Shown here in pieces: positions 28,232 to 49,412 of a stretch of 64,000 bases of DNA. The DNA comes from Candidatus Pyrohabitans jungbluthii (GTDB taxonomy: Archaea; Hydrothermarchaeota; Hydrothermarchaeia; Hydrothermarchaeales; BMS3B). Position 1 is the first letter of the stretch. Each line of letters starts with the position of its first letter. Position numbers and translations under genes: made by a program. Location of the stretch: the NCBI GenBank assembly GCA_002010065.2, contig MTMD02000002.1, positions 186,001 to 250,000 of the forward strand, written 5' to 3'. Below the pieces are notes generated by a model, which saw only the letters and a program-made list of their open reading frames with translations, did no database searches and was not told the origin of the DNA.

Positions 28232-28285
28232 GCGCAGGGAGGATACTCAGCAAAGTTTTTAAACGCCCCTTGCAAACAACTTACG

Positions 28286-29179: not shown

Positions 29180-29864
29180 CTTTTCTCTGGTAATCCCCGC
29201 TTACAACGAGGAGAAGAGAATAGAAGATGTTCTGAAGGCTTATAAGGACGTGGCTGATGAAGTGATTGTGGTAGCAAACGGTTGTACCGATGCAACCGTT
29301 GAAATAGTAGGTAAATTCTCTAAGAAATACCCGAATATCAAGCTCGTGGTGTTTGAAGAAAAGCTTGGCAAGGGTGGTGCGGTTATTGAGGGGTTTAAAA
29401 AGGCTTCTCATAGCATCGTCGGCTTCGTGGATTCCGACCTTTCAGTGCCCCCAGAGGAGCTGAGGCGTTTGGTCAGAATACTTAAAAAAAGCGGAGAGTT
29501 TGCAGGGGTGATAGGAAGTAGACGTGCGGAAGGTTCTGAGATTGTTATCAAGCAGCCATTTTTCAGGAGATTGTCGAGTAGAATCTTCAATTTGCTTGTG
29601 AGAACACTTTTTGGATTGAAATTCAAAGATACCCAGTGCGGGGCTAAGATATTTAGAAAATCTGCCATAGATGCTGTAATCGATTCTATTTATACCAAAG
29701 GCTATGAGTTCGATGTTGAGCTTCTGTGGAAGCTTGATAAGAAGGGTTTTGTGATTAAAGAAGTGGGTATTAGATGGAGACATTCCGGAGAATCAAAATT
29801 CAGACTTTCTTATGGTCCAGAGATGCTCATAAATTTATTGAGAATACGTTTTTTCAGTAAATAG
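29160..29864 (+). CDS. Family 2 glycosyltransferase, dolichyl-phosphate sugar synthase type
   Basis: Cytoplasmic GT-A enzyme of 234 residues: LVIPAYNEEKRIEDVL at the N-terminus, VVANGCTD, GKGGAVIEGF, the metal-binding FVDSDLSVPP (about 88-97) and the later DTQCGAKIF with YEFDVELLWK. These motifs match dolichyl-phosphate glucose/mannose synthases. No C-terminal membrane helix is present. ATG 29160 lies inside the end of the flippase-like gene, so the two are translationally coupled. The end overlaps the convergent gene to the right by 55 bases. Confidence 0.85.
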   Translation: MRPKGDSFSLVIPAYNEEKRIEDVLKAYKDVADEVIVVANGCTDATVEIVGKFSKKYPNIKLVVFEEKLGKGGAVIEGFKKASHSIVGFVDSDLSVPPEELRRLVRILKKSGEFAGVIGSRRAEGSEIVIKQPFFRRLSSRIFNLLVRTLFGLKFKDTQCGAKIFRKSAIDAVIDSIYTKGYEFDVELLWKLDKKGFVIKEVGIRWRHSGESKFRLSYGPEMLINLLRIRFFSK

Positions 29865-31429: not shown

Positions 31430-31439
31430 TCCCGCCCAC

Positions 31440-32867: not shown

Positions 32868-32933
32868 ATTCAAGTTATCACCACGCTTCAATGATGGACA
32901 TGATTTATTTTTTATATCTTAAAAATATAAATT

Positions 32934-33845
32934 ATGAACCCAACCGCTTCGTATAATAATGGGAAAAATTTCTCTGGGAATAAATTTTGTATTGTGTTCC
33001 TCCTTCTAATAATTACATTCGGTGGATGCACTTATCCATCTGATAACTTTACAGGAAACGTTACGGGTGCAATAACTTTTGCGATTTATGGAGATAGCAG
33101 GGATAACTTCGAGATTCACAGGCAAATAGTTATGAAAATGCAGGAATACCATCCTCTTTTCGTCATACATACAGGAGATTTTGTAAATTCTGGAGATTCT
33201 ATATATGAGTGGAGGAAGTTCGAGGAGATAACCCAAGCATTAAAAATATACCCCACAGTAGGAAATCACGACTATCCCCTTGAAAATTACTTTAAAATAT
33301 TCGGAGTACCATCTTATTACTCTTTAGATTATGAATGCATCCATATGGTAAGTATCAATGCCTTTGAGAACTTATCTCCTGGAAGTCCTCAATATCGTTG
33401 GCTTGAAGAGGACCTAAATACCACTCCTCAATGGAAGTGGAAAATAGTCTTTCTTCATCTCCCTCCATATAGCTCGGGCAAACATGGTTCTAATATTTGG
33501 GTGCGTGAAAACTTAGTACCTCTCTTAGAAAAATACGCTGTCGACTTCGTCTTTTCAGGACATGACCACGGATATGAAAGGAGCTACCCGATTTTGGGAG
33601 GAGAGGTCAATGAGAGCGGTGTTGTGTACTTTGTGAGCGGCGGTGGAGGTGCAGATTTATATGGCTTTGGTTCCAATTGGTGGACAGCAAAGTCAAAAAG
33701 CACCCACCACTTTATTCTCGGTGAAGTCAACCTGACAATAGCGAGATTCATTGCTATTGATGCTCAAGGAAATGTTTTCGACATATATACCAAAGAGAGG
33801 GCGAAGCCCAGAGTTTTGTATACTATACCATATTGTAATGATTAA
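32934..33845 (+). CDS. Secreted lipoprotein metallophosphoesterase
   Basis: Calcineurin-like phosphoesterase of 303 residues. Signal segment FCIVFLLLIITFGGC ends at a lipobox cysteine (about residue 32). Metal-site motifs follow in order: IYGDSRDN, VIHTGDFVNSG, VGNHDYP, FLHLPPY and FSGHDHGYERSYP. The pattern resembles purple acid phosphatase-like enzymes acting outside the cell. It may remove phosphate from glycan or polyprenyl intermediates, given its position in the glycan island; this is inference. Divergent from the gene to its left. Confidence 0.85.
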   Translation: MNPTASYNNGKNFSGNKFCIVFLLLIITFGGCTYPSDNFTGNVTGAITFAIYGDSRDNFEIHRQIVMKMQEYHPLFVIHTGDFVNSGDSIYEWRKFEEITQALKIYPTVGNHDYPLENYFKIFGVPSYYSLDYECIHMVSINAFENLSPGSPQYRWLEEDLNTTPQWKWKIVFLHLPPYSSGKHGSNIWVRENLVPLLEKYAVDFVFSGHDHGYERSYPILGGEVNESGVVYFVSGGGGADLYGFGSNWWTAKSKSTHHFILGEVNLTIARFIAIDAQGNVFDIYTKERAKPRVLYTIPYCND

Positions 33846-35416
33846 TAATAATTTACTACTGCACCTAAAAGATGCGGATCCTTAAATATCATCCCAACAC
33901 TTTCGACAGCCAGATCATGTCTCATAAGCACCTCAATACTAACACCATTTTCTAGGATTTTAAAGTCTTTTACGCAAGGATGATTGGAGAGTTTATTTAT
34001 CTCTTGAGGGGTAACCTTCCTATTTAAAAAAATCACCACTGTTTTATTATCTCCAATTCTACCTGGGGAAACGCCATAAATCCCTCCATTGGAATTTCTA
34101 GCTGCTTTCACGAATTCCAAATTAATTATTTCCCCAAATTTAAATGGTTTATTTGAAGAGAAAGTACCAAATATGAAAGGGCCTTCTTTAAAAATTATCT
34201 TGATTTTAATCCCCTCAGATGAAAATATATTCTCAATTTCTTCTTGGGTTGAAGTTTCAAGAGCAGGAGAATATATGGTAGCATTCCAGACTCTACTCGA
34301 TACTATGCCATAATTTCTAAATCCTTTATACATAATTAAAAAACCTAAGGAAGATGCAGTAACTAACAGAACAATTAAGCATGCGGCGATTCTTATGCGT
34401 AATTTTTTATTTGCTGTCTGGAATGATTTAAAAAGCAGAAAGATAGACAGAATCGTTGGAAATAATAGCAGTGCCTGTGGATTGTTACTATTATCATATG
34501 CTGGAATTTTAAGTAGGACAATTGTGTAAATAACTAAAAGAAAAGGAAGTGTTGAAAATAAGTAAATTAGCGGTATCGAAAGCCAATTTTTTATATTTTC
34601 TTTTTTTGATATTAGGTACACCAAGAATGATAAGTAGGCTCCCAAACTGGCATATGAAAAGGATGTGAAAATTCCTCCATCAATAGATGTTACAAATATC
34701 CCAAAAGCGGGCACAGAGAGGACAAAGTAATGGGTAATGCCATATTCGCTGAGTGTCATATAACCAAGAATAACCCACAGTAAGAAGGACATTATAAGCA
34801 ATACCGCAGTAGCTTTATATACCTCTCCGGGGATAACGTGTGTCCACTCTAGAAAATCCACATTGAAAATTCCGTTGAGATAAAGCATGTCAAGGGCATA
34901 GGCAAGGGTTGGCTTTAATAGATGATGATGAAGCCAGGAATTTGGAGCACTATAACTTAATGAATTTATGGGAATTAAAAATTCTGCAGAATTCGGCAAT
35001 GCACGTGATTCTAATTCATGTTTAAACAAAAAAAATCCAACACCATAAAGCACAAGGTTAGGGAAGAGATATAGTAACATTAAATTTATAGGATTTCCGA
35101 TTCGGATTTCTATCTTTAGTTTATAGGTTATGGATCTTATAAATAAAGGAATTAGAATGAAAATAAAGAAAAACGAAATTTTTAGGCCACTAGATCCGCC
35201 AAAATATGGATACAGGACCATTTGTATGTAGTAAGCTGCCTTAACATCTAGATTAGTTATAATTGCCAGTATCATAACGGATAGAGTCGAAATAAGAATA
35301 AATTTTCCTGACTTAGATGTTTCCTCCATGTTCAATTTAACCCAAATCAATAAGCGCTGAAGTTGTTTTATCACACTTAGTGAAATCAACAATACCCAAT
35401 TTAAAATTTTCCGCAC
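33842..35416 (-). CDS. Large multi-pass membrane protein of unknown function
   Basis: Not recognised. 524 residues, about ten membrane helices to residue 370, then a soluble C-terminal domain of about 150 residues with alternating beta/alpha pattern. Overall plan matches the other GT-C-like proteins of this island, and WLHHHLLKPTLAYALD (about 160) could be the acceptor-side loop. An internal ATG at 35329 (MEETSKSG) is an alternative start that would drop an N-terminal 29 residues which is itself hydrophobic. Very AT-rich. Convergent with the phosphoesterase gene by four bases. Confidence 0.6.
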   Translation of the reverse strand: MRKILNWVLLISLSVIKQLQRLLIWVKLNMEETSKSGKFILISTLSVMILAIITNLDVKAAYYIQMVLYPYFGGSSGLKISFFFIFILIPLFIRSITYKLKIEIRIGNPINLMLLYLFPNLVLYGVGFFLFKHELESRALPNSAEFLIPINSLSYSAPNSWLHHHLLKPTLAYALDMLYLNGIFNVDFLEWTHVIPGEVYKATAVLLIMSFLLWVILGYMTLSEYGITHYFVLSVPAFGIFVTSIDGGIFTSFSYASLGAYLSFLVYLISKKENIKNWLSIPLIYLFSTLPFLLVIYTIVLLKIPAYDNSNNPQALLLFPTILSIFLLFKSFQTANKKLRIRIAACLIVLLVTASSLGFLIMYKGFRNYGIVSSRVWNATIYSPALETSTQEEIENIFSSEGIKIKIIFKEGPFIFGTFSSNKPFKFGEIINLEFVKAARNSNGGIYGVSPGRIGDNKTVVIFLNRKVTPQEINKLSNHPCVKDFKILENGVSIEVLMRHDLAVESVGMIFKDPHLLGAVVNYY

Positions 35417-35497
35417 TCTTGTTCATTATCTGAAAGGAAAATTCATATATCTGCAATATTATATGAAATGCCATAACTCACAAAGGAGTAAGATAAA

Positions 35498-36394
35498 ATG
35501 CTAAAAGAACTCATAATTTCGATGAGACCACAGCAATGGTATAAGAACTTAGTTTTATTTGTTGGTATTGTATTCTCCTTAAATCTCTTAAACTTTCAGA
35601 AATGGTTTGATGTAATTTCTGCATTTATTATATTTTGCATACTTTCCGGGAGTGAGTACATTATTAATGACATTTTAGACATAGAAAAGGATAGGAAGCA
35701 TCCCAAAAAGAGGAACAGACCAATTGCTTCAGGAGAGTTAAAAGTATCTCATGCTCTGTTATTTGCGGTAATATTGATTTTTGTAGGGGTATTGGGCGCC
35801 TATTTAATAAATATGTTATTTTTTGCAGTTTCAATAGCATATATTCTGTTAATCCTCTCATATTCGATGTTTCTGAAAAATATCATAATAGTTGATTTGC
35901 TGGTTATTTCTATTGGCTTTGTCATAAGAGCAGTTGCCGGATGCCTAGCTATAAATGTATTTATTTCTCCTTGGCTAATAATTTGTGCTTTTTTACTGGC
36001 TTTATTTTTAGCACTTTGTAAAAGGAGGCATGAATTGACATTACTTGGAGAAGAAGCTAGAAATCACCGTAAAATTCTTGGAGAATATTCGTCTAAAATG
36101 CTTGATCAGATGATTAATATCACTACTGCTGCATTAATCATGTCATATTTCTTATACACCTTTCTTGCAGATAATATTTGGATGATGATAACAATTCCTT
36201 TGGTATTATACGGTCTTTTCAGATATATGTTTTTGGTTTATGTAAAGAACATTGGGGGAGAACCGGAAATGCTGTTTAAGGATAAAGGAATGTTGATTAG
36301 TATAATTTTGTGGGTTGTTTTAGTTGTTATGATACTCTATGGTGCTCATTATGGAGTTTTAAGCATGGATTTGTACAGTTTAACAAAAACTTGA
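35498..36394 (+). CDS. UbiA-family prenyltransferase, decaprenyl-phosphate phosphoribosyltransferase-like
   Basis: Membrane prenyltransferase of 298 residues and about nine helices. The first aspartate-rich motif is NDILDIEKDRKHPKKRNRPIASGE (described in two parts: NDILDIEKD at about 57-65 and HPKKRNRPIASGE just after). The opening SMRPQQWYKNLVLF and the later LCKRRHEL match the subfamily of mycobacterial Rv3806c, which moves phosphoribose from PRPP to decaprenyl phosphate. It would thus supply a polyprenyl-phosphoryl pentose donor for the cell-surface glycan. The substrate assignment is inference from motif likeness. Confidence 0.8.
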   Translation: MLKELIISMRPQQWYKNLVLFVGIVFSLNLLNFQKWFDVISAFIIFCILSGSEYIINDILDIEKDRKHPKKRNRPIASGELKVSHALLFAVILIFVGVLGAYLINMLFFAVSIAYILLILSYSMFLKNIIIVDLLVISIGFVIRAVAGCLAINVFISPWLIICAFLLALFLALCKRRHELTLLGEEARNHRKILGEYSSKMLDQMINITTAALIMSYFLYTFLADNIWMMITIPLVLYGLFRYMFLVYVKNIGGEPEMLFKDKGMLISIILWVVLVVMILYGAHYGVLSMDLYSLTKT

Positions 36395-36593
36395 AAACTA
36401 TGATGATAAATCTGTTCCACCTATGGTAGAAATGTTCTATTTTTATCCTTAACACTGGGAGGTTTAAAAAAAGTTGGAGCGGTTTCCTTTAACTCTTGGG
36501 ATAATCTGTATTTTTATATTGAAAGTGCTAAATGAAAAATTTGGATATACACGAACATGGTAGTTGAATGTTTTAATAAAGGCTATATTATAA

Positions 36594-37550
36594 ATGGTGG
36601 GAAAGATGGAAATAAGGAACAAAATAATAATTTCATTACTAAGTGCTGTTGCGATATATACGACCCTTTCAATTTATGCAGACATTAATGATCTGATTAT
36701 CGTTTTTAGGGGCTTTAAATGGACATATATCCCTTTGATACTAGTACTAACCTTTTTGAACTATGTATTAAGATTTTTCAAGTGGGATTATTATTTAAGA
36801 TGCTTAAAAATCAACATAAGCAGGAGAGATAGTATGGCAATATTCTTAAGTGGATTATCTATGTCTGTTACTCCGGTAAAGTTGGGGGAGGCATTTAAAT
36901 CTTATCTATTAAAAGAATTGAATGGTGTTGAAATGAGTAAGACACTTCCGATTATATTTGCAGAACGTTTTACAGATTTAATTGGATTAATAATATTGGC
37001 TTCAATTGGATATTCTGTTTTCAAATACGGTAAAGAAGTACTTATAACTACAATTTTTGTTATTTCTATAATAATTATGATAATCCAGTCAGAAAAAATG
37101 TTTATAAAGTTAATAAATTTTAATTTTCCCTTTATATCAAGATTTACAGAAACAGTACAAAACTTGTATTTAAGTACCCATACACTCTTCAAAATAAAGA
37201 ATTTAACTATTGTAGTAGGAATAAGCGTTTTATCGTGGTTTTTCGAATGTTTAGCTTTGTTTTTGGTTATTGAGGGATTTGGACTAGAGATTTCCCTACT
37301 TTTACCTGTTTTCGCCTTCAGTTTTTCCACTATAGTAGGAGCGGTGAGCATGATTCCTGGAGGGTTAGGCGTCACTGAAGGTAGCATGGTGGGAATTTTG
37401 ATTTTCAGTGGTATTACCAAGACCGTTGCAATCGCTTCAACTCTGATAATCAGATTTTGCACCCTTTGGTTTGGTGTTTTAATTGGACTTTTTACGCTGT
37501 CTATTTTATCTATTTATGGTTTTAAATATGGTTTTAAAATAAAAGGGTGA
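36594..37550 (+). CDS. Second flippase-like / LPG-synthase-type membrane protein (UPF0104)
   Basis: 318 residues with about eight helices; motifs VLRFFKWDYYLRCL, LSGLSMSVTPVKLGEAFKSYLLKE (read in parts), IFAERFTDLIGL and MIPGGLGVTEGSMVGIL match the same family as the protein at 28286-29179, from which it is clearly diverged. Likely a lipid-linked sugar flippase or transferase. Start at ATG 36594 or 36606 cannot be settled: no clear ribosome site precedes either. The preceding 200 bases are AT-rich with no visible gene. Confidence 0.75.
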   Translation: MVGKMEIRNKIIISLLSAVAIYTTLSIYADINDLIIVFRGFKWTYIPLILVLTFLNYVLRFFKWDYYLRCLKINISRRDSMAIFLSGLSMSVTPVKLGEAFKSYLLKELNGVEMSKTLPIIFAERFTDLIGLIILASIGYSVFKYGKEVLITTIFVISIIIMIIQSEKMFIKLINFNFPFISRFTETVQNLYLSTHTLFKIKNLTIVVGISVLSWFFECLALFLVIEGFGLEISLLLPVFAFSFSTIVGAVSMIPGGLGVTEGSMVGILIFSGITKTVAIASTLIIRFCTLWFGVLIGLFTLSILSIYGFKYGFKIKG

Positions 37551-37554
37551 GGGA

Positions 37555-39174
37555 ATGATAAGGGTGACATTGTTAAGACATTGGCCGCTAATTATATCAG
37601 TGGGATTCCTTTTGGCAATAATAGCGGTATTGCTAAATGCTTCTCTTATTTATACTCATGGACATCTTGTCTACGCTCTTGATGACCCTTATATTCACAT
37701 GGCTATGGCAAAAAATTTTGCTCAACATGGGGTTTGGGGTGTGACTAAATATGAGTTTTCATCCTCATCCTCATCGTTACTTTATCCATTATTGCTATTC
37801 GTAATATTTTTCTTATTTGGGGTAAACGAAGCTGTTCCGCTTGTATTAAATGTTGTATTTGCAACACTCACAACGTATCTGATTTATATTTTACTTAAAC
37901 AATACAAATTTCCATCCATCTACAATTTTATTGTTCTGCTCTCGATAATATTCTTCACACCTTTTCCTGCGATTATATTTACCGGTATGGAACATATGTT
38001 ACACACACTCATCACAATTTTCTTTGCTTATCTTTCTGCTAAAATTTTATCAAAAGAGCGTTCTGATTTAAATAAAGAATTTTCATTTTTGCTAATATTA
38101 GCACCTTTACTACCCATGACTCGGTATGAGGGGTTGTTTTTGGTGATGGCTGTGAGCACCTTATTCATTATGAGGAAGCGGTTGCTTGAATCCTTCCTGT
38201 TGATCTCACTAAGTCTTGTCCCAATTGTAATATACGGTTTAATCTCGATCTCTAATGGATGGTATTTCTTCCCAAATTCAATTCTTATTAAAAATAATAT
38301 ACCTGTAATTTCTTCTGTAGGCATTTGGAATTTTATTTATCTATTTATTACTCGAATATCAGAATCCCACATTTTAATTCTCATATTTACCACTTCAATT
38401 CTTTTTATTCTGAAATTTATCAGGTCAAATACTCTCTGGAGAGAGCAAACGATCCTCCTTTTTATTTTTATTACGACTGCCTTTTTGCATATGTTATTTG
38501 CGAAGACTGGATGGTTCTATAGATATGAAGCCTACTTAATTGCCTTTGGTATATTTACCATCGCTCTAGAGGTACGGGAATATCTACCAGAAAAGCTATT
38601 GTTTGACAAATATTTAATTCCGAAATACATAGCAATGATACTACTTATCTTTCTCTTTATCTCACCATTTGCAATAAGGGGATATGTATCTTCAATAATT
38701 ACACCTCTTGCTACAAAAAATATCTATGAACAGCAGTATCAAATGGCTTTATTCCTTAAAGAATTCTATCAGGGAGAAACTGTTGCTGCAAATGATATCG
38801 GTACAATCAACTTTATAGCAGATATTAAATGCTTGGATTTAAAGGGTTTAGGTAGTTTAGAAGTAGCTAAAGCAAAAAGAGAGAGTTCTTATAATACTGA
38901 GTACATATACAAGTTAGCGAAGAACGAAGACGTAAAGATCGCAATTGTTTATGACCATTGGTTTGAGTCGTATGGTGGGCTTCCTCCCCAATGGATTAAG
39001 GTTGGAGAATGGAAAATCTCAAATAACGTGGTATGCGGAGGAGATACTGTTTCATTCTATGCAGTTGATCCTGAGGAGGAGGATAGATTGATCGAAAGCC
39101 TAAGAATATTTTCTTCAAAATTGCCAAAAAATGTTAAACAGATGGGAAAATACATTGAAATTAAACAAAAATAG
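37555..39174 (+). CDS. GT-C-type membrane glycosyltransferase candidate
   Basis: 539 residues with about eleven helices. The first loop shows YALDDPYIHMAMAKNFAQHGVWGV (aspartates at about 41-42) and YEFSSSSSSLLYPLLL, a pattern seen in GT-C proteins that use polyprenyl-phosphoryl sugars. The C-terminal 130 residues form a soluble extracytoplasmic domain. It starts four bases after the flippase-like gene and overlaps nothing, so an operon with the UbiA-like gene is likely. In actinobacteria a GT-C arabinofuranosyltransferase neighbours the phosphoribosyl transferase, which makes a pentosyl transferase a reasonable guess. Confidence 0.7.
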   Translation: MIRVTLLRHWPLIISVGFLLAIIAVLLNASLIYTHGHLVYALDDPYIHMAMAKNFAQHGVWGVTKYEFSSSSSSLLYPLLLFVIFFLFGVNEAVPLVLNVVFATLTTYLIYILLKQYKFPSIYNFIVLLSIIFFTPFPAIIFTGMEHMLHTLITIFFAYLSAKILSKERSDLNKEFSFLLILAPLLPMTRYEGLFLVMAVSTLFIMRKRLLESFLLISLSLVPIVIYGLISISNGWYFFPNSILIKNNIPVISSVGIWNFIYLFITRISESHILILIFTTSILFILKFIRSNTLWREQTILLFIFITTAFLHMLFAKTGWFYRYEAYLIAFGIFTIALEVREYLPEKLLFDKYLIPKYIAMILLIFLFISPFAIRGYVSSIITPLATKNIYEQQYQMALFLKEFYQGETVAANDIGTINFIADIKCLDLKGLGSLEVAKAKRESSYNTEYIYKLAKNEDVKIAIVYDHWFESYGGLPPQWIKVGEWKISNNVVCGGDTVSFYAVDPEEEDRLIESLRIFSSKLPKNVKQMGKYIEIKQK

Positions 39175-39184
39175 GGGCAGATAC

Positions 39185-40318
39185 ATGAAAAAATCAAGAA
39201 TTGCGGTGTTAAAAACATCACCTGGAAGGATCTTGGAGGACTACTCCAAATTGATGCGTATGATAGAATATGGAAAATTTTTATCTAAAGATGTGAAAAC
39301 AATTTTAAAACTCAATTTATCTTGGACTTTATTTTTTCCAGCATGCTCCACACCGCCATGGCAGCTTGAAGGTATACTGAAAACTCTAAAAGAAGATGGA
39401 TACAATGATGTTTTGGCTGTGGAAAATCAAACTGTGGTAACACATCCCTGGAAAGGTGCTTATTATAACAAATGGCTTCCTATTCTCAAGCAATATAAAA
39501 CTAGGTTCCTACCATTGACAGATGTGGAGTGGGTAAATTATGAACCCAAAACAGAGATGCTTGCTATGAAAGATATATTCGAAAAAATATTAATACCAAA
39601 AATTTTAATCGGAAGCAATATAATTCATTTACCAACAATTAAGACACATGGGCACACGACCACGACCGGAGCGATGAAAAATGCTTTTGGCGGTTTAATA
39701 CCGAAATATAGGCATCACGCGCACCTGAAGATACATGAAGTCCTCGTTGATTTATTAGCTATTCAGAAAGAGATCCATAAAGGAATTTTTGCAGTTATGG
39801 ATGGTTGTGTTTGCGGAAACGGTGCAGGTCCAAGAACTATGGAGCCTTTTATTGGTAATATAATACTAGCAGGTGGAGATCAAGTAGCTATAGATGCAGT
39901 AGCCGCAAAGATAATGGGATTTGATCCTATGGAAGTGGATTACATTAAAATAGCCCATGATAGAGGATTAGGAGTTGGAGATATTGACCAGATCGAAATT
40001 ATTGGTATTGATAAAAAAGATCTCGAAAAACTAAACTTTGGTTTCATAACAAAAAAAAGCCTGGTAATTAAATGGGATCAGATATTAAGAAAGAATACGG
40101 CAAAAATCAAATGGATACATTATCTTCTGTTTTACTCTCCCATATTTAAATTTTTTATCTTTTTATCAGAATTGTATCATGATTGGATTTGGTATAATTT
40201 AATCGGAAAAAGAAAAATAAAGCAGTTTATGATAACTGAGTGGGGAAAATTATTTAGCAAATACGAATACGGCGAATTTCCAAAATTTAAGGAAGTTAAA
40301 GACTGGAACCCTTATTAA
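39185..40318 (+). CDS. DUF362 domain protein
   Basis: 377-residue protein with the DUF362 pattern: KLNLSWTLFFPACSTPPW, HLPTIKTHGHTTTTGAMKNAFGGL (about 150-173, read in parts), HHAHLKIHEVLVDLLA, VMDGCVCGNGAGPR and AGGDQVAIDAVAAKIMG. Several histidines and cysteines could bind metal, but the C-terminal ferredoxin motif of some relatives is missing. Function is unknown. It ends the AT-rich island. Start ATG 39185 follows AGGGG; the open frame extends further into the preceding gene. Confidence 0.78.
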   Translation: MKKSRIAVLKTSPGRILEDYSKLMRMIEYGKFLSKDVKTILKLNLSWTLFFPACSTPPWQLEGILKTLKEDGYNDVLAVENQTVVTHPWKGAYYNKWLPILKQYKTRFLPLTDVEWVNYEPKTEMLAMKDIFEKILIPKILIGSNIIHLPTIKTHGHTTTTGAMKNAFGGLIPKYRHHAHLKIHEVLVDLLAIQKEIHKGIFAVMDGCVCGNGAGPRTMEPFIGNIILAGGDQVAIDAVAAKIMGFDPMEVDYIKIAHDRGLGVGDIDQIEIIGIDKKDLEKLNFGFITKKSLVIKWDQILRKNTAKIKWIHYLLFYSPIFKFFIFLSELYHDWIWYNLIGKRKIKQFMITEWGKLFSKYEYGEFPKFKEVKDWNPY

Positions 40319-40344: not shown

Positions 40345-40581
40345 TCAAAGATTAGCTATCTCCTCCTTTACACTGTTCTGCGTAACTTTTCCCGTGAGAA
40401 TCACACTTTCGTTTGTTTTTTCAGCGGTTGTTTTTGCTATTTCTTTGTAAATTGGTATGAATATAATTGCAGCTACAATAATGGCACCAGCAATAAGTAT
40501 GTACTCTACTGCTCCCTGTGCTTTTGTTTCCAAAGCAAAACTGTAAATGTTCTTTATAATAAAATCTTTAAATGATGCCAT
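40345..40581 (-). CDS. Pilin-like protein with class III signal peptide
   Basis: 78 residues. Near residue 18-40 it has KAQGAVEYILIAGAIIVAAI, the class III (archaeal type IV pilin) signal: cleavage by the EppA-type peptidase before QGAVEY releases a hydrophobic assembly helix. The positions after the helix are short and polar with a glutamate/threonine-rich tail. ATG 40581 is chosen because GGGAGG precedes it. It is downstream of, and similar to, the pilin at 40640-40849, with a long N-terminal leader compared with that gene. Confidence 0.85.
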   Translation of the reverse strand: MASFKDFIIKNIYSFALETKAQGAVEYILIAGAIIVAAIIFIPIYKEIAKTTAEKTNESVILTGKVTQNSVKEEIANL

Positions 40582-40639
40582 TTGCCTCCCTACGAAATAA
40601 AAAAGTACATGCAAAAAAGAAAAAAAGGTAGTAGTTAAT

Positions 40640-40849
40640 CTAGCTAAGGTTTGCTAACTCGTTGTTTACCACATTGCCGACAACCGTAGCAGTCTCCTCG
40701 ATGGTATTCTTAGTCTTATTTCCAGCAGTCTGTGCGATATTCTTGTATATCACGAAGATAACCACTGCAGCGACTATAATGCCGCCCGCCAGCAGGATGT
40801 ACTCAATCGCGCCCTGAGCCTTTTCCTCTTTTAAAAATTTTTTTAACAT
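40640..40849 (-). CDS. Pilin-like protein with class III signal peptide
   Basis: 69 residues; MLKKFLKEEKAQGAIEYILLAGG gives a short positive leader, the QGAIEY cleavage signature and a hydrophobic helix to about residue 35. ATG 40849 has AGGAGGTG eight bases upstream. TATA-like CTATATATAA at 40901-40910 (minus strand) is the probable promoter and leaves a leader of about 30 bases. It lies just downstream of the TadC genes on the same strand and is likely a structural subunit of the same pilus. Confidence 0.88.
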   Translation of the reverse strand: MLKKFLKEEKAQGAIEYILLAGGIIVAAVVIFVIYKNIAQTAGNKTKNTIEETATVVGNVVNNELANLS

Positions 40850-40956
40850 GTTTCGGCACCTCCTGTGGGACAAGATTTAAAGAAAATTATAGTTTTGCGC
40901 CTATATATAACTCTCGGTTACGTGGATGTATATCCTGGGTTTACAGTAATGCACAG

Positions 40957-41919
40957 CTAGAAGGCGGCGAGCATCCCGGGCATAAGACTCTTTACTCCCC
41001 AGAAAACGATATATGCTACTACACCCATCGGTAGCGCGAATTTAAATCCTTTTTTAAAATCACCGTACATAACAACTCCCATCATTATCCCCCCGCTTAC
41101 AGCTTGAGCCACAACGTAGAAAGAGAGCGCTGTCATAATGGAGTTGATCTCCTCCAGTGGAAACTGCTCCGCTCCACCTGTACCAGCCATCGCCTGCGTC
41201 ATAATCGTTGGCAGCGCACCCACAACGCCCATCACGAAGGGCCCTGCCATTAAGCTAGCCATCGCAAGAAAAGAAACCTGCTGCGAAGTCAGAGACTTGC
41301 GTTCGCGCTGAATCATGCGCACTGCTCTAATGTCCTCGCTCACTTCCTCAAGTACATCGCTTATTGGGCCACCGCTTTCTATTCCTTCCAGAAGCAGACG
41401 CATCGCTCGCTCTATCTGCTTTGAGCCGGTTCGCTTGGAAAAAGCAATAAGCGCATCCTTAAGAGGTCTGCCTCTGCGCATCTCAAGGGTTATCTGAGCG
41501 AACTCGTCGCTGAGAGCGCCGTACTCTGCCTCTGCAATCTCCTGAATCACCGCTTCCAGCACCAAGCCCGTGCGGATAGAAACCGCCATGTGGTGCAACG
41601 CGTCAGGAAGCATCTCCTCTATCTCTGCCCTTCGCTTGTCTGCCTGCATTTTGGGTATTGCAACCATGAGCGCTTCTGTGAATATAAATGCCCCAAGTCC
41701 GGCAGGGAGGTTTACAATAAGCGAGATTAGCACAAAAAGCACAACTCCGAGGGCGAAGAATATACCCATCCACTCACGGGCAGAGAAAGAGATGTTTGCA
41801 TTTGCAAGCATTATCTCCATAGAGATGAGAAATCGCCTGGGAACGAGAAACTGGGGAATGCGAAGCTTTTCGAGGATACTTCGCAGCCTGTTAACCTTAA
41901 CTTCTTCTTTCTCTGCCAT
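40957..41919 (-). CDS. tadC: Pilus platform membrane protein, TadC/GspF family
   Basis: 320-residue membrane protein with the GspF/T2SSF fold: cytoplasmic four-helix segments (EMLPDALHHMAVSIRTGLVLEAVIQEIAEAEYG, read in parts) and membrane helices at about 45-80 and 235-310. It follows the larger family member directly; its ATG 41919 comes just after that gene's TGA at 41922-41924, with AAAGGTG before it. Together the pair forms the inner-membrane platform. The GTG at 41925 is a minor alternative. Confidence 0.88.
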   Translation of the reverse strand: MAEKEEVKVNRLRSILEKLRIPQFLVPRRFLISMEIMLANANISFSAREWMGIFFALGVVLFVLISLIVNLPAGLGAFIFTEALMVAIPKMQADKRRAEIEEMLPDALHHMAVSIRTGLVLEAVIQEIAEAEYGALSDEFAQITLEMRRGRPLKDALIAFSKRTGSKQIERAMRLLLEGIESGGPISDVLEEVSEDIRAVRMIQRERKSLTSQQVSFLAMASLMAGPFVMGVVGALPTIMTQAMAGTGGAEQFPLEEINSIMTALSFYVVAQAVSGGIMMGVVMYGDFKKGFKFALPMGVVAYIVFWGVKSLMPGMLAAF

Positions 41920-41921
41920 TT

Positions 41922-43058
41922 TCACACCTTTGGTTCAAAGCGTTTGACCATGAAGGACATGTAGATGCCAACACCGAAAAAGGCGAGGTAGAGTATCCAC
42001 ATCACATTCGCAGGTATTGGAAGCCCCTTCATCGCTATGCCCATGGCTATTACAAGGGTTGTTATAAGCACAGGTGCCACAACAAGTGCAAACATGTACA
42101 TCAGCGAGAATGTATTCAAAATCTGTATGTAGTCTTTAAGCTTCATTCTCATCTCGGTTGCAACTTCCTCGGCAATTATCTTTAGCGTGTTTGCAAGATT
42201 TCCGCCAGTTCGCAGGGTTGAAATTATCTGGCGGGAAGCCTTCTTTAGTCCGGGTGAGTCTATGCGCAGGTTCATCCTGTCGTAGGCTTCCTCTATGGTT
42301 GCGCCGCGCTCTATTTCAAGTATTGCGCGCCTGAACTCCTCGCTGAGCACACCGTAGCCGCTCTGGGCGACGCTACGCATTGTTTCCAGCAAACCCGCGC
42401 CAGAGGTGAGTTGCGTTGCCATGTGTCTAAGCGCAAAGGGAAGTTCCCTTGAAAAGGCATCTGAGCGCGCTTTGACCTTAGATTTTGGGTAGATTCTCGC
42501 GTAGAAAAAGACGAAGACTCCAAGCAGGGGGCCCAGCACTATGCCGATGAGCGAGCCCAAAGCGCCGAGAGTGGCGGCGAAGAGTATGCTGAAGAGCACC
42601 GCGGAGGCAATAGCAACAATAACGCTCGCCCCTATCGCAAAGGCTATGTATTTGGATGCTGGCATGAGGATATTCGCCTTGTACAGGTCTTCCTGAATAT
42701 TTGCGAAGAATGACGAGGGTGCTCTTGTATAACCCGAAAAGAGGTCTGAAACAATGTTCACCAGCCTAGTGGCGAAGGGTTCGCGTAGCTCCTCACGCTC
42801 CGGAACAATCTCAAAAGGCTCCTCGCCAGGAAGCTCCTCCTCCAGGGCAACAGCCTCGCGAAGCTTAAGGAGCTTCTCTTCAATGGCGCGCTTTCTCGCC
42901 TCCTTCTCTTTTTCTTTCTTCTCCCGGAGCTTTTTTGCAGCTTCTTCCTGCTCAGATAGAGCAAGAGATACCTCCTGGGCTCTCCTGGCTACGCTCTCTA
43001 CACCGGTTACCGTCAGTTCACCTATTTTTTCTATCAGCCTTAATATTGCATTTGCCAT
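41922..43058 (-). CDS. tadB: Pilus platform membrane protein, TadB/TadC-like, with charged N-terminus
   Basis: 378 residues. The first 85 residues are a highly charged coiled coil (EEAAKKLREKKEKEKEARKR), followed by the GspF-type domain with membrane helices at about 140-190 and 320-370 and the cytoplasmic motifs ELPFALRHMATQLTSG, LLETMRSVAQSGYG and LRTGGNLANTLK. It lies one base downstream of the tadA stop. The charged extension may contact the ATPase; that is inference. Confidence 0.88.
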   Translation of the reverse strand: MANAILRLIEKIGELTVTGVESVARRAQEVSLALSEQEEAAKKLREKKEKEKEARKRAIEEKLLKLREAVALEEELPGEEPFEIVPEREELREPFATRLVNIVSDLFSGYTRAPSSFFANIQEDLYKANILMPASKYIAFAIGASVIVAIASAVLFSILFAATLGALGSLIGIVLGPLLGVFVFFYARIYPKSKVKARSDAFSRELPFALRHMATQLTSGAGLLETMRSVAQSGYGVLSEEFRRAILEIERGATIEEAYDRMNLRIDSPGLKKASRQIISTLRTGGNLANTLKIIAEEVATEMRMKLKDYIQILNTFSLMYMFALVVAPVLITTLVIAMGIAMKGLPIPANVMWILYLAFFGVGIYMSFMVKRFEPKV

Positions 43059-43059
43059 C

Positions 43060-46000
43060 TTATTCCCCTATGCTCTTGTGAAGTTCAATCTCCTGCAGAA
43101 AGCCTTCGGGGTCTGAGTAGTACCTGTTGAATGTCTTCGAGACATCTCTTATGTCTGTTATATGATTCTCAACCATCCATGATAAGACTTTCTCCCTTCG
43201 CTTGAGCTCTTCCTCCAGGTCTTTCATGGAAATACCTTTCAAGCGGGCGATTTTCTGCTTCAGCACGCTTGGCTGCCCAGTCGCTACCAGGTCGTCCTTC
43301 TTGGGGTCCCACTCATAAACGTTGTTGAGGCTCACCTTTCCCTGATCGTCACTCACCACCTCTGCCACTTCGGTTATTCTTCGCAGAGTCTTGCCCTCGT
43401 GGTAAATCTTGTTCTGCATGAGTATTAAATCGAGGGCGGGGAGCATTATCTCGGGCACCTCCATGGGCGGGTTTGTGAGCCTTATCAGGGTCTCCTTGGC
43501 AGAGTTCGCGTGCACAGTGCCCATGCAGCCATCATGACCAGTGTTCATGGCAGTGAAGAGCGTCCTCGCCTCGCGTCCGCGAACCTCGCCCACAATAATG
43601 CGGTCAGGACGCATTCGTAGCGTGTTCTTCACCAAGTCGTCCATTGTAACCTCGCCCTCACCCTCAACGTTGGGCGGGCGTGTCTCGAGGCGAACTACAT
43701 GCTCAATCGGAAGTGTAAGCTCTGCGGTATCTTCAATGGTTATTACACGCTCAGTCTCGGGTATGAAGGAACACAGCACGTTGAGCGTTGTTGTCTTACC
43801 ACAGCCTGCACCTCCGGCGGCGAGAATATTGCCCGGCTTTATCCCCAGCCCTTCCACCACCAACCACAGGTAGGCAGCCACCTCTATGTTCAAGGTGCGG
43901 AACTCTATGAGGTTCACCACTGTCAAAGGCTGCGAGCGGAACTTTCTTATTGTTATTGTAGGCCCATCTAGGGAAATTGGGGGTATGGTTGCGTTCACAC
44001 GCGAGCCATCACTGAGACGGGCGTCCAGCAGCGGCGAAGATTTGTCTATCCTTCTTCCAACAGATGCAGCGATCTTCTCGATTATTCTTATTATCTCCTC
44101 ATCTGTATCAAAGACAATGTTTGTTTTGCAGTTTCCGTAATTGCGGTGGTTAACATAGACCGGCTTCTTCGTGCCTATGACCATTATCTCCTCAAGCTGG
44201 TCGTCGCTGAGCAGAAACTCAAGTAAGCTATAGCCCACCATGTTGTTGACCACAAGCTTGGCTATGTCCTTGCGCTTGGCCATGCGCACTTCTGGGAAGT
44301 AGCGCTCTATGACCTCGAGAACACGCTGCATGAATATTCGCTTTCTCTCCTCTCTGTCGGTTATGCTTTCCGGGTCTATGTTTATCTCCTTTACCGCGCG
44401 ATTCTCTATCTCCTCCAGGAGCTGCTTTTCGCGAGAGGAGAGCTTGGGTAAGGGCACGAGGTAGTGGGGATTTTTCTCATTCTCCAACTTCACTATCTTA
44501 CGATGTGCATTGTGGTCAAGCACTGTCTCCTTTACGTCTCCCTTCTCTGAACCCAAGAGAAGCAGATAGCTTCGCCTCCGCCTCTTTGCCTCCTCTTCTC
44601 CCACCTCTTTATCAGACTCTATCCCCTCAATCTCCTTGAGAAGCTGCTCGGGGTTAGTGTAATACTCCCTTATTACCCTCCCCACCTCCTTAATGCCGCG
44701 CAAGTTGTTCTCGACCATGTACTCCAGAACCTTTTTCCTGCGCTCTATCTCGGCGTCCACATCCTTAAGTGAGACGCCGCGAAGCTCTGCGATTTTGCTC
44801 TTTAAAAGGCAGGGCACTCCAGTGGGCTTTATGGTGTCATCGCGGGGGTCCCACTCGTAGATTATGTTTATTTTTACCTCTCCGTTTTCGATTCCAACAA
44901 CCTCGGCGATCTCAGTTATCCTTCTCACCGTCTTGCCCTTGTAGGAGAAGCGGTTCTGCATGAAGATGAAGTCAAGAGAGGGGATCATTATTTTTGGCAC
45001 ATTCATTGGCGCAGAGGTGAGCCTGGTTATGGTCTCTCGCGCTGTGTTCGCGTGCAGCGTGCCTAGGCAGCCGTTCTGCCCTGTGTTCATCGCCGCCAGC
45101 AGAGTTCTCGCCTCAGCGCCGCGCACCTCACCGACGATGATGCGATCGGGACGCATACGCAGTGTGTTCTTCAGCAGCATCTCCATGTTTATCTCGCCTT
45201 TGCCCTCCACGTTCGGTGGCCTCGTTTCGAGGCGAATCCAGTGCTCCAGAGGTAGCTGAAGCTCCGCCGTGTCTTCTATTGAGATAACCCTGTCTGCTGG
45301 GGGTATAAAGCTGCCCAGGCAGTTGAGCGTCGTCGTCTTGCCGCTGCCGGTGCCGCCGCTCACTAGGAAATTTGCAGGCTTTACGCCATAGCCCTCTGCG
45401 ACCAGCCAGAGAAAGGCCGCTAGCTCAGTGGTCATGGTGCCGAATTTTATTATGTCTACAACCGTGAGGGGGTCTTTCCTGAACTTTCTTATGGTAAGGG
45501 AAGGTCCGTCAAGAGAAACGGGACGAATAGTGGCATTTACACGCGAGCCGTCAGGGAGGCGGGCGTCGAGCAGCGGAGAGGTGAGGTCAACCCTCCTGCC
45601 GATGGTTCTCGCAATCCTATTTATTATCTTCTCAATCTCCGCGTCGCTCTCAAAGACAATGTTGGTTTTGCACATTCCGTGCTTCCTGTGGTACACGTAC
45701 ACGTGTTTTTTGGTGCCCACTACCATTACCTCTTCAAGGGCATCGTCGTTGAGCAGCGGCTCCAGTAAGCCATAGCCTATCATGTTCTGAACTATCAGCT
45801 CGGCGAAGGCGTGCTGCTTGTGCTTTGGTATATTGGGGTACTTCAGGTCAATTAGAGCCACAACTTCCTTGAGAAAAGCCTCTCTTCTCTTTTCTCTATC
45901 CAGAAAACTCTCAGGGTCAATGGTTATCTCGGCCACGGCACGACGTTCAATGTCTTTCAAAATCTTTTTGTCTTTCTCGGTTAATTCCGGCAGAAATACA

Positions 46001-46314
46001 ACGTATATTGGTAACTTTTCTCCAGGTTTTCTTACTATACGGTGGTCTTTTGCCTCCTCTAGGATCTCTCCGATCACCTCGTCACCGATTCGGCGAATTT
46101 TATCAAAGCTATCTAGGTAGCTGCCAGCCTCCTCCCTCGCAGCGTCCAGAAGACCACCAATCGAGCGCTGGGTGTGTGCTACCTCACCTCGTGTAACCTT
46201 GAAATCAAACCTATTTTTAGGGCTTTCTCCCTGAGCAGCTCCACTAAGAATTCCAGTAATATCTTTACCTTTTCCTTTTTTCTTTTTCTCAAAGTCAAAG
46301 AAGTCATAAGGCAT
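43060..46314 (-). CDS. tadA: Tandem TadA-type secretion ATPase, two complete modules in one chain
   Basis: 1084 residues, about twice the usual length of a type II/IV secretion ATPase. Module 1 (about 110-545) and module 2 (about 615-1060) each have the N-terminal EITIDPES-type helix, the DLTSPLLDARLPDGSRVNAT pattern (read in parts), Walker A (GGTGSGKT at 320-327; GGAGCGKT at 834-841), the Asp box, IIVGEVRG (Walker B region) and the TLHAN/TVHAN histidine box. The modules are offset by 514 residues. Both P-loops look intact, although the second has Cys in place of Ser. It drives the pilus with the two TadC-type proteins and pilins downstream. Confidence 0.95.
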   Translation of the reverse strand: MPYDFFDFEKKKKGKGKDITGILSGAAQGESPKNRFDFKVTRGEVAHTQRSIGGLLDAAREEAGSYLDSFDKIRRIGDEVIGEILEEAKDHRIVRKPGEKLPIYVVFLPELTEKDKKILKDIERRAVAEITIDPESFLDREKRREAFLKEVVALIDLKYPNIPKHKQHAFAELIVQNMIGYGLLEPLLNDDALEEVMVVGTKKHVYVYHRKHGMCKTNIVFESDAEIEKIINRIARTIGRRVDLTSPLLDARLPDGSRVNATIRPVSLDGPSLTIRKFRKDPLTVVDIIKFGTMTTELAAFLWLVAEGYGVKPANFLVSGGTGSGKTTTLNCLGSFIPPADRVISIEDTAELQLPLEHWIRLETRPPNVEGKGEINMEMLLKNTLRMRPDRIIVGEVRGAEARTLLAAMNTGQNGCLGTLHANTARETITRLTSAPMNVPKIMIPSLDFIFMQNRFSYKGKTVRRITEIAEVVGIENGEVKINIIYEWDPRDDTIKPTGVPCLLKSKIAELRGVSLKDVDAEIERRKKVLEYMVENNLRGIKEVGRVIREYYTNPEQLLKEIEGIESDKEVGEEEAKRRRRSYLLLLGSEKGDVKETVLDHNAHRKIVKLENEKNPHYLVPLPKLSSREKQLLEEIENRAVKEINIDPESITDREERKRIFMQRVLEVIERYFPEVRMAKRKDIAKLVVNNMVGYSLLEFLLSDDQLEEIMVIGTKKPVYVNHRNYGNCKTNIVFDTDEEIIRIIEKIAASVGRRIDKSSPLLDARLSDGSRVNATIPPISLDGPTITIRKFRSQPLTVVNLIEFRTLNIEVAAYLWLVVEGLGIKPGNILAAGGAGCGKTTTLNVLCSFIPETERVITIEDTAELTLPIEHVVRLETRPPNVEGEGEVTMDDLVKNTLRMRPDRIIVGEVRGREARTLFTAMNTGHDGCMGTVHANSAKETLIRLTNPPMEVPEIMLPALDLILMQNKIYHEGKTLRRITEVAEVVSDDQGKVSLNNVYEWDPKKDDLVATGQPSVLKQKIARLKGISMKDLEEELKRREKVLSWMVENHITDIRDVSKTFNRYYSDPEGFLQEIELHKSIGE

Positions 46315-46473: not shown

Positions 46474-47697
46474 TTGGGACTGCCCACACTGGATGGAGCA
46501 AAGCTACAAGACAAGCGCGTCTTGATGCGCATCGACATAAACTCGCCAATTGAGCCGAGCACCGGTGCAATCCTCGACGACACAAGGATAAGGAGTCACA
46601 TCGCAACCATAGAAGAGCTTTCACATGCGAAGCTGGTTCTGCTTGCCCACCAGAGCCGTCCGGGACTTGAGGATTTCACTACACTAGAGGCACACTCGCA
46701 GCGCCTCGCGAAGCTTCTGGGCAAGGAGGTGCGCTACATTGATGACGTCTTTGGTAAAGCTGCGAGGGAGGAGATATTCCGCCTGAAGAGCGGCGAGGTG
46801 CTCATGCTGGAGAACGTTCGCTTCTGCAGTGAGGAGGTGGCAGAGGAGGTTAAATCAAAGCCTCCGGAAGCTCAGGCGAAGACAAACTTAGTGAGGAAGC
46901 TTTCCTCATACGTTGACGCGTACGTCAACGATGCCTTCGCAGTTGCGCACCGCTCGCAGCCAAGCGTTGTTGCCTTTCCAGTGGTTCTCCCCAGCTATGC
47001 TGGAAGGCTCCTCGAAAAAGAGGTGGAAAATCTGAGCAGGGTTTTGAAGAGTGACGCTGAGCCCAAGGTTTTCAGCTTTGGCGGAGCCAAGGCGAAAGAC
47101 TCCTTGAAGGTTATGGAGAAGCTTTTGAGTCGTGGCATAGCTGATATTATACTCACCTCAGGAATGGTCGCGAATGTGTTTCTCCTCGCGCAGGGTAAGG
47201 ACATAGGCGAGGTTAATCTTAGGGTGGTGAAGGAGAGGGGATTTGACACGCTTGTAGAGAAGGCAAAGAAGCTTCTGGAAAAGTACGGGGAGAAGATTCA
47301 GGTTCCAACAGACCTGGCTTTTAAAAGAGACGGCTCACGGGCAGAGACGAGCGTTGACAATCTCCCCAATCAGAAGATTATGGACATAGGCATCGATACC
47401 ATCGCAAGATATACGAAAATAATCGAAAACGCTGCCATAGTGGCTGCCAACGGTCCGGCAGGGGTTTTTGAGATAAAGGAGTTTGCCCTGGGAAGCCAGG
47501 AGCTACTGAAAGCTATGGCGAGGTGCAAGGGCTTTACAGTAATAGGCGGGGGACACCTCGCTGCTATAGCAGCGAAGCAGGGGCTGAGGGAAAAGATATC
47601 CTTCATAAGCACCGGCGGCAAGGCGATGCTTCTCTTCTTAGCTGGAGAAAAGCTCCCTGGTATAGAAGTGCTCAGGGAAGCGAGGGGCTATGACTAG
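46474..47697 (+). CDS. pgk: Phosphoglycerate kinase
   Basis: Glycolytic/gluconeogenic enzyme that interconverts 1,3-bisphosphoglycerate and 3-phosphoglycerate with ADP/ATP. 407 residues, with RVLMRIDINSPIE, HQSRPG, MLENVRF, the hinge region FSFGGAKAKDSLKVM and the C-terminal VIGGGHLAAIA nucleotide site. The start is a TTG at 46474, placed by GGTGAT a few bases upstream and a TATA-like AAATATATATAG about 35-45 bases upstream. Its 3' end overlaps the following minD by eight bases. Confidence 0.95.
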   Translation: MGLPTLDGAKLQDKRVLMRIDINSPIEPSTGAILDDTRIRSHIATIEELSHAKLVLLAHQSRPGLEDFTTLEAHSQRLAKLLGKEVRYIDDVFGKAAREEIFRLKSGEVLMLENVRFCSEEVAEEVKSKPPEAQAKTNLVRKLSSYVDAYVNDAFAVAHRSQPSVVAFPVVLPSYAGRLLEKEVENLSRVLKSDAEPKVFSFGGAKAKDSLKVMEKLLSRGIADIILTSGMVANVFLLAQGKDIGEVNLRVVKERGFDTLVEKAKKLLEKYGEKIQVPTDLAFKRDGSRAETSVDNLPNQKIMDIGIDTIARYTKIIENAAIVAANGPAGVFEIKEFALGSQELLKAMARCKGFTVIGGGHLAAIAAKQGLREKISFISTGGKAMLLFLAGEKLPGIEVLREARGYD

Positions 47698-48451
47698 GGT
47701 AATAGTGGTGGCCTCCGGTAAAGGTGGAGTGGGTAAAACCACGATAGCCGCGAATTTGGCGGTAGCGTTGAGCATGTTCGGGAAGCGCGTAGCCGTGCTT
47801 GACGCAGATGTGGTGATGGCAAACTTGGAGATAATTCTCGGGCTTAAAAATCCGCCGGTTGCGCTTATAGACGTGTTGAAGGGGAGGCTGGAAATCAGCG
47901 ATGTTATGTATGAAGGACCTGAAGGGGTTAAGATAATCCCTGCCGGCATAACCCTTGATGGCTTCAACGAAGAGAACATGGAGATGCTCAAGGCAGCGTT
48001 GCGCGAGATACCCAGGGACATAGAGATACTGGTGATAGACGCCCCCGCGGGTAGAGACGCTGCCATGGTCATGGACGAAGGGCAGGAGGTCATAATAGTA
48101 ACCACGCCTCAGGTTTCAAGCGTCTCCGACGCGCTCAAGATGAAGCTCCTGGCAGAACGTATGGGTGCGCGTACCATAGGGGCAATAATGAACATGGTCG
48201 AGGGCAAGCCTCGGGAACTCAGCGTGCAGGAGATTGAGAACACCCTGGATACAAACGTCATAGCAATTGTACCAGAGGACGAGGTGGTAAAGGAGGCTCT
48301 TGCCTATGAGGAACCCTTTGTGCTCAGGTACCCCTACTCTGAGCCGACGAGGGAGATAATGAAACTTGCCGCAGGTTTAATAGGTAGAAACTACTCGCCT
48401 CCGCAGCCCTCGCTGCTGGAGAGGCTAATAAACTTCCTGAGAAGGCGTTAG
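47690..48451 (+). CDS. minD: MinD/ParA-family ATPase, first copy
   Basis: Deviant Walker A ATPase of 253 residues. KGGVGKTTIAANLAVAL at residues 11-27, the Asp in VLDADVVMANLE, and the switch IDAPAGRD are canonical, and the C-terminus SLLERLINFLRRR is an amphipathic helix of the kind that targets MinD to the membrane. Archaeal MinD homologues position cell-surface machines rather than the Z ring. It overlaps pgk by eight bases and converges with the small-protein/minD unit on the other strand. Confidence 0.92.
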   Translation: MTRVIVVASGKGGVGKTTIAANLAVALSMFGKRVAVLDADVVMANLEIILGLKNPPVALIDVLKGRLEISDVMYEGPEGVKIIPAGITLDGFNEENMEMLKAALREIPRDIEILVIDAPAGRDAAMVMDEGQEVIIVTTPQVSSVSDALKMKLLAERMGARTIGAIMNMVEGKPRELSVQEIENTLDTNVIAIVPEDEVVKEALAYEEPFVLRYPYSEPTREIMKLAAGLIGRNYSPPQPSLLERLINFLRRR

Positions 48452-48633
48452 CTTCCCTTCTCCTTTATCTTCAGCAACCTGCTCTTTAACTTATTGAGCT
48501 CCTCCTGTGAGAGTTGCACCCCACCTTTAATCTCTCTGATTTCCTCTTTGAGATATTTAACCCTGAAAAGGAGCAGTACGTTGAATATAACACTTATAAA
48601 AAGCAGAATGTAGATTACAAGATAAATCCCCAT
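48448..48633 (-). CDS. Small membrane protein with coiled-coil tail, 61 aa
   Basis: An N-terminal transmembrane helix (IYLVIYILLFISVIFNVLLLF, about residues 3-23) is followed by a positively and negatively charged heptad-like helix (VKYLKEEIREIKGG, LSQEELNKLKSRLLKIKEKG). The ATG at 48633 overlaps the upstream minD stop as TGATG, so it is translated with that ATPase. It resembles no family I can name, but the coupling suggests a membrane partner of MinD. Confidence 0.7.
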   Translation of the reverse strand: MGIYLVIYILLFISVIFNVLLLFRVKYLKEEIREIKGGVQLSQEELNKLKSRLLKIKEKGS

Positions 48634-49412
48634 CAAACTCCCCCAAAGAGACCGTTTATCAGGCGCTTCATGAAACTCCTCTTCTTGGGAGTAGGAGGTA
48701 CGTACTTTTCTCCAATTAAATCTGCCGCAAGCTTCTTTATAGCAATCGACGCAGGTGAATCTGGTCTTCGAAGGATTACCGGCTGACCATAGGCGGTGCT
48801 TCTTCTCACCTCGGTGTCTTCCGGAATAGCTGCCAGCACGCGGGTCTCAAGTATCACCTCCACCTCCTGTAATGTCAGGTCGCTCCTGTCAAAGCCCACG
48901 CGGTTGAGCACCGCGCCGAGCACATTGCAACCCAGCTTTTTTGCAACTATCCTAGTCTTGAGAGCATCGCTCATGGAGGAAATCTCGGGGTTGGCTACCA
49001 GCAGGAGTTGCTCTCCCGCAGCAAGGGCTGTGACCACGGGCCTACCAAGCCCTGCAGGAGCATCTATAAGGAGGATTTCTGTTTCGCCCAGAACCTTGGT
49101 GAGCACAGCCTCAAGCCTCTCGGGGTCTGCCTTGCGCAGCCCGTCTAAGCTTATGCCTGCAGGCACAACTTTAACACCTGCCGGCCCCTCGTAAATCGCC
49201 TGAGAAACATCCGCTTCCCCTGCAAGCACGTCATGGAGGGTGACATTCATTCCCTCCATGCCAAGATGGAGTTCAAGATTCGCCATCTCTATATCGGCAT
49301 CTAAAATGGTCACATCCCTGCCAAACTGGGCAAGGGCAATGCCAAGGTTGCTCGTAAGCATTGTCTTTCCAACGCCGCCTTTTCCTGAGGCTATGGTAAT
49401 AGAAACTCCCAT
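48633..49412 (-). CDS. minD: MinD/ParA-family ATPase, second copy
   Basis: 259-residue homologue of the protein at 47690-48451, with [31 protein letters not shown] and IDAPAGLG. The C-terminus [16 protein letters not shown] is another amphipathic membrane-targeting helix. It is on the opposite strand to the first copy, with only the 61-aa gene between, and the two C-terminal coding ends face each other. The pair probably arose by duplication, but the sequences are quite diverged. Confidence 0.9.

Follow-up and report, generated by a model that had tools for sequence, protein, structure and literature searches.

A tandem KlbA/CpaF-type pilus motor ATPase with two diverged modules is conserved in Hydrothermarchaeales and may form an alternating hetero-ring

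The bacterial motor ATPase CpaF has been modelled in a 6:3:3 arrangement with its platform proteins, in which a single TadB-TadC dimer bridges two neighbouring subunits (PMC11300603), and independent work, arguing from PulF, has proposed that TadB-TadC heterodimers form a trimer (PMC10790770). An Asp in Loop 8 of CpaF and the motif E-G-S-G in its Central Loop are needed for function and were modelled touching TadB/TadC (PMC11300603). CpaF, PilB and PilT are thought to act with C2 symmetry (PMC11300603, PMC6858323), and archaeal GspE2 and one FlaI structure form rings in which open and closed states alternate (PMC6858323). A ring with three TadB-TadC pairs points to a gyratory mechanism, and a ring with one or two to a rotary one (PMC11300603, PMC6711533); a commentary on the superfamily counts heterohexamers and the way they are controlled among the open questions (PMC6711533). 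Two questions on the motors of type IV filaments concern us here: whether unlike ATPases sit in one ring, and how many TadB-TadC pairs a ring carries. Both questions become testable with a natural tandem of two diverged modules that has been retained across an order of archaea: each module can be mutated separately, and the stoichiometry would follow from the mass of a ring complexed with TadB-TadC.

We analysed a stretch of 64,000 nucleotides (the window) from Candidatus Pyrohabitans jungbluthii; positions below are those of the window, on its reverse strand unless otherwise stated. The open reading frame at 43060..46314, which has an ATG start and contains no Ns, encodes a tandem motor ATPase of 1084 aa, matched in two stretches by the Pfam family T2SSE (PF00437, E 2e-98). 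Internal and orthologue alignments placed module 1 at aa 93-563 (44626..46038) and module 2 at aa 607-1084 (43063..44496), and the orthologue alignment defined an inter-module linker at aa 564-606 (44497..44625). The spacer from the conserved Y551 to I607 ranged from 18 to 87 aa across orthologues, the shortest (18 residues) being that of G021, a genome of the sister order. The two modules are 59% identical over 489 aligned residues. The preliminary description of this DNA had reported two complete modules at an offset of 514 residues, and this offset was found for the P-loops (GGTGSGKT, aa 320-327, 45334..45357; GGAGCGKT, aa 834-841, 43792..43815), the Asp boxes (aa 345 and 859), the Walker B motifs (RIIVGEVRG; aa 395 and 909) and the THAN boxes (aa 419 and 933). 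The P-loops and Asp boxes are indeed complete in both modules, but HIS box 1 is not: at aa 411-423 (45046..45084) it has Gln413 in place of the first His and retains His421, whereas HIS box 2 (aa 925-937, 43504..43542) retains both His927 and His935. Modelling confirms the predicted FlaI/GspE2 fold for a single module; in the AF2 monomer model of the full tandem chain (pLDDT 72, pTM 0.62) the placement of the modules is not fixed.

The ATPase gene is followed after 1 nt by the gene for a TadB-like platform protein (378 aa, 41922..43058), which overlaps by 4 nt with that for a TadC-like platform protein (322 aa, 40957..41925). Each has one T2SSF domain, and both were identified by domain hit and as conserved neighbours. 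Two putative small pilins with class III signal peptides come next. The first, with the signal peptide AQGAIEYILLAGG (40640..40873), was identified from a weak Pfam hit (20.6 bits, below the cut-off of 23.7) and locus conservation, an equivalent pilin being found 3' of TadC in most orthologous loci; the second (40345..40614) was identified from a Pfam search and orthologous loci. The order ATPase-TadB-TadC is kept wherever orthologous loci reach far enough, with the pilins next in most.

Just downstream of the pilus operon lies a 12 kb region (window positions 28000-40000) in which the GC content, elsewhere about 54%, is down to 32-42%, which suggests an island. Two convergent genes encoding MinD/ParA-like ATPases also lie near the operon, at 47690-48451 on the forward strand and 48633-49412 on the reverse strand. 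Tad systems employ a ParA-like protein, TadZ, and by analogy these genes are possibly linked to the pilus system.

Sequence features and neighbours identify the tandem as the motor ATPase of a predicted archaeal type IV pilus, of the KlbA/CpaF type with separate TadB and TadC, and it is predicted to power pilus extension or retraction. The Walker A motif, Asp box, Walker B Glu and HIS box of PilT/VirB11-like (T2SSE) ATPases are all present, except for the first His of module 1. One module per chain is typical of T2SSE ATPases, although not sequence-defining, and the tandem departs from this in having two. Adjacent TadB/TadC, the Loop 8 Asp and E-G-x-G, and three arginine fingers, which mark the KlbA/CpaF type, were all found. 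The earlier label of "TadA" fits less well than that of an archaeal KlbA/CpaF-type motor. The NCBIfam models for FlaI, TadA, TrbB and VirB11 all scored above their cut-offs, each whole-protein score adding up the hits on the two modules. Identity with the archaellum motor FlaI/ArlI was rejected, as the NCBIfam pass is a sum over two modules, no flaH or flaJ adjoins the gene and the true archaellum locus is at L085.

Tandem relatives, which the preliminary description had suggested seeking in related archaea, do exist: an uninterrupted two-module ORF was found in 18 of 20 Hydrothermarchaeales genomes, a count which takes in a few genomes whose ORF leaves the contig inside module 2. The tandem of a nineteenth genome (G002) is cut at the contig end, and G015, which is 62% complete, is without it. 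Within the sister order, the tandem is present in G021 and absent from G020 and G022. When 394 archaeal genomes were searched with the junction, 350 gave some match, and there was no further tandem among the matches listed. Those very long ORFs outside the phylum which were checked were rejected as tandems, being single motors with long inserts at fixed motif positions; we read the inserts as inteins, one of which was confirmed by Pfam. The open-access papers searched did not describe any two-module motor of the PilT/VirB11-like kind. A Candidatus Pyrohabitans contig is 90% identical to the tandem. At 100% identity, this Hydrothermarchaeota tandem also matches the public contig MTLP01000018.1 (L001), whose title reads 'Thermococcus sp. 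JdFR-02' and whose organism label looks wrong.

An assembly error in the internal repeat, or a stop codon between the modules in other isolates, had been named beforehand as grounds for doubting the tandem, and neither was found. The longest exact DNA stretch common to both module halves is 14 nt, so the repeat could not mislead an assembler, and no orthologue has a stop codon between the modules; intact orthologue ORFs and this 14 nt maximum together rule out a frameshift or assembly error. At third codon positions the identity between the modules is no more than 39%, and the duplication is therefore old. Both modules are under strong purifying selection, with a dN/dS of 0.02-0.11 in each, these values being rough as synonymous sites are nearly saturated. 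We consider the chance that the tandem is an assembly artefact, or a pseudogene with one half decaying, to be negligible: nothing was found in its favour beyond the G002 copy ending at contig ends inside the gene, and it is contradicted by the short shared stretch, by the single open frame of orthologues from many separate assemblies and by the dN/dS of module 1 and of module 2.

Across the 18 orthologues, the Walker A Lys (Lys326 and Lys840), the Asp-box Glu, the Walker B Glu and the second HIS-box His are invariant in both modules, as are R258/R772, R276/R790 and R386/R900. Motif alignment to CpaF numbering equates the CpaF arginine fingers R217, R223 and R347 (roles in PMC12019362) with R252, R258 and R386 of module 1 and with R766, R772 and R900 of module 2. 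None of the 18 orthologues deviates at the equivalents of R223 and R347 in either module; R766 is replaced by Lys in G021. The Cys of P-loop 2, set against the Ser of P-loop 1 in the preliminary description as a notable difference, was rejected as a functional mark because the residue varies, orthologues having GGAGSGKT, GGSGSGKT, GGSGCGKT or GGSSSGKT.

The genuine asymmetry between the modules is the missing first HIS-box His of module 1. Of the 18 orthologues, 16 have Gln at this position of module 1, one has Leu and one His, whereas all 18 have His in module 2. Those platform-linked single motors which were examined have the His too, as do the two orphan clades of the class. The single module 1 His belongs to G016, where it was either regained or kept. 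Derived changes near the module 1 HIS box comprise L406, A407, L417 and T424. In PilB, the two HIS-box His residues sandwich a Thr which contacts the neighbouring subunit, and the second His touches the gamma-phosphate (PMC5424180). As module 1 has lost the first His and kept the second, Gln413 points, by analogy with PilB, to changed communication between subunits rather than to a dead site.

The same residue allows a reading in which module 1 is a regulatory or structural partner which binds but hardly hydrolyses ATP, giving three active sites per ring; this is compatible with an alternating ring and not exclusive of it. The first His has gone from module 1 in 17 of the 18 orthologues, together with the derived changes listed above, and is retained in module 2 and in operon-linked single motors, all of which would fit such a role. 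However, the Walker A Lys, Asp-box Glu, Walker B Glu, second His and arginine fingers of module 1 are intact, and its mean orthologue identity is slightly higher than that of module 2 (66.7 vs 65.2%). We regard a regulatory module 1 as possible but rather doubtful.

Trees of the modules placed the order-level module 1 sequences in one clade and the module 2 sequences in another, with the branching inside each roughly tracking the species. These separate clades indicate that duplication and fusion are older than the order, and we propose that an ancestral single-module motor gene would have undergone tandem duplication and fusion in the ancestor of Hydrothermarchaeales or earlier. The G021 tandem grouped with the same event in 66% of bootstraps; single and double origins gave AU p values of 0.38 and 0.40, so that an independent event in G021 is not favoured either way. 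Next to the tandem in the module tree are single-module, platform-less paralogues of the same class. In a distant genome, G044, two separate motor genes stand side by side ahead of tadB-tadC (L078:4082-9189); they possibly picture the pre-fusion state, and the pair looks like a duplication separate from that of the tandem. The first of these two KlbA-type genes contains a LAGLIDADG intein and is without the first HIS-box His.

It might be argued that fusion was accidental and neutral, with the tether doing no more than raising the local subunit concentration while mixed and like rings form indifferently. Only 7 sites are fixed differently between the modules at a strict threshold, most of them mildly, and neighbouring duplicates fuse by an easy mutational step. 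Against this, the fused state has been held across order-wide divergence without a split or reversion in 19 genomes, and the HIS-box asymmetry has a direction, and we therefore think a neutral accident unlikely.

The residues corresponding to the platform contacts of CpaF are kept in both modules, the Loop 8 Asp (D243/D757) and the Central Loop (E370G371xG373/E884G885xG887) being invariant. They are nearly invariant in platform-linked single motors, while the platform-less paralogues from these genomes conserve them less strictly (Asp 64% and 33%). This pattern suggests that both modules probably face and contact the platform, which in turn argues for one ring and not two stacked. Six chains could instead make two stacked homohexameric rings, with the module 1 ring atop the module 2 ring; double-ring machines are found among AAA+ proteins, such as p97 and ClpB. 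Linkers of up to 87 aa would allow such a stack, and one of PilU beneath PilT has already been proposed (PMC6762196). However, one ring alone could reach TadB-TadC, yet both modules keep the platform-contact Asp and E-G-x-G, and the linker is down to 18 residues in G021; a stacked arrangement thus appears quite improbable. Module-specific divergence of the platform-facing Helix 5 was no greater than average, and the idea of separate TadB and TadC partners for each module, as judged by wear of Helix 5, was rejected.

We infer that three chains form one alternating six-module ring on three TadB-TadC pairs, and give this reading a probability of roughly 60%. The preliminary description had suggested a pseudo-hexamer of three polypeptides; the platform-contact and arginine-finger residues kept in both modules fit the predicted mixed ring more readily than a stack of two rings or an inactive module. 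Modules 1 and 2 would alternate round the ring, at 3:3:3 with TadB-TadC, the equivalent of the 6:3:3 modelled for CpaF, and each neighbouring module pair beneath one TadB-TadC pair would be a single polypeptide. The ATP sites would each be completed by the other kind of module, with Arg386 of module 1 supplied to module 2 and Arg900 of module 2 to module 1. With Gln413 in place, the sites of modules 1 and 2 would most likely differ in hydrolysis or cooperativity, because the HIS-box neighbourhood relays nucleotide state between subunits in PilB. The arrangement is geometrically allowed, since open and closed states alternate round the rings of archaeal GspE2 and of one FlaI structure. As an obligate hetero-ring it would extend, and perhaps also retract, the small class III pilins encoded downstream. 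It should be noted that an alternating ring can mimic C2 symmetry but never exactly have it, which counts against the model. We place at even odds the stricter claim of an obligate hetero-ring of three fused chains in which canonical and HIS-box-modified sites strictly alternate, hard-wired to threefold symmetry and to three TadB-TadC pairs as a trimer. If true, such a ring could not run the exact C2 rotary cycle proposed for homohexameric CpaF and PilB.

Motor ATPases are also doubled elsewhere in these genomes. In the window's genus flaI is doubled between flaH and flaJ (flaH-flaI-flaI-flaJ; L085:5809-7434 and 7431-9125, G000:C6), with further adjacent flaI pairs at L154-L157 and L159 (window's genus and G018), and only one flaI is present in the family's other genera. 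The upstream copy in the window's genus has Arg, and the downstream copy His, where the first histidine of the HIS box is expected, and the G018 pair has His and Leu; single flaI genes all keep the His. Since some tandem-bearing genomes also have a duplicated archaellum motor, the pairing of motor ATPases happened more than once in the lineage. A rule that one copy of any adjacent ATPase pair is without the first HIS-box His agreed with the tandem, with the two G044 genes and with the doubled flaI of the window's genus and of G018, but was rejected when its advance prediction failed, the flaI copies of G158 and G097 all keeping the His. Both copies of the G016 and G015 pairs also keep it. Doubling of motor ATPases is therefore recurrent and HIS-box asymmetry frequent without being a rule; we claim the asymmetry for the tandem alone, its recurrence elsewhere being suggestive.

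Other unusual motors were also noted. At L083:3442-8323 (G000:C11) one platform-less single-module paralogue ends an apparent operon with a protoglobin-PAS protein, a histidine kinase and a response regulator, and is possibly a signalling-linked motor ATPase. Another, at L084:3256-5581 (G000:C7), overlaps a gene encoding replication factor C domains at that gene's 3' end, and its clade has degenerate residues in the platform-contact loop. Over-long FlaI proteins in G020 (L178:1012-3354, 781 aa), G022 (L179:253-2601, 783 aa) and G050 (L192:2741-6235, 1165 aa) have an insertion directly ahead of the HIS box, which is probably an intein.

Among known systems, the tandem resembles the single-module archaeal motors known as KlbA in the intein literature. 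Comparison with these relatives, as had been proposed, found 55-65% identity to either module and the same ATPase-TadB-TadC operon, a single-module motor occupying the same slot before TadB-TadC in other archaea. Unlike the tandem they have one module per chain, and their ATPase domains bear inteins in several lineages, whereas the tandem is without one. Bacterial TadA/CpaF (8rkd, 9e24), the best solved bacterial relatives, share TadB/TadC and the Loop 8 and Central Loop residues, but their ring consists of six identical single-module chains with C2 symmetry. PilT and PilU of type IVa pili are, like the two modules, paralogous motor ATPases working together; they are separate chains, however, for which heterohexamers are debated and stacked hexamers have been proposed (PMC6762196; PMC6711533). 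Archaeal GspE2 (2oap) and FlaI/ArlI (4ii7, 4ihq), the best Foldseek hits, have the fold of each tandem module but are single-module proteins, and FlaI is accompanied by FlaH and FlaJ, which the tandem is not. Several ATPase modules in one secretion-motor chain are also found in EccC of type VII secretion, where the modules are strung along the chain and belong to the FtsK family, a different family from that of the tandem.
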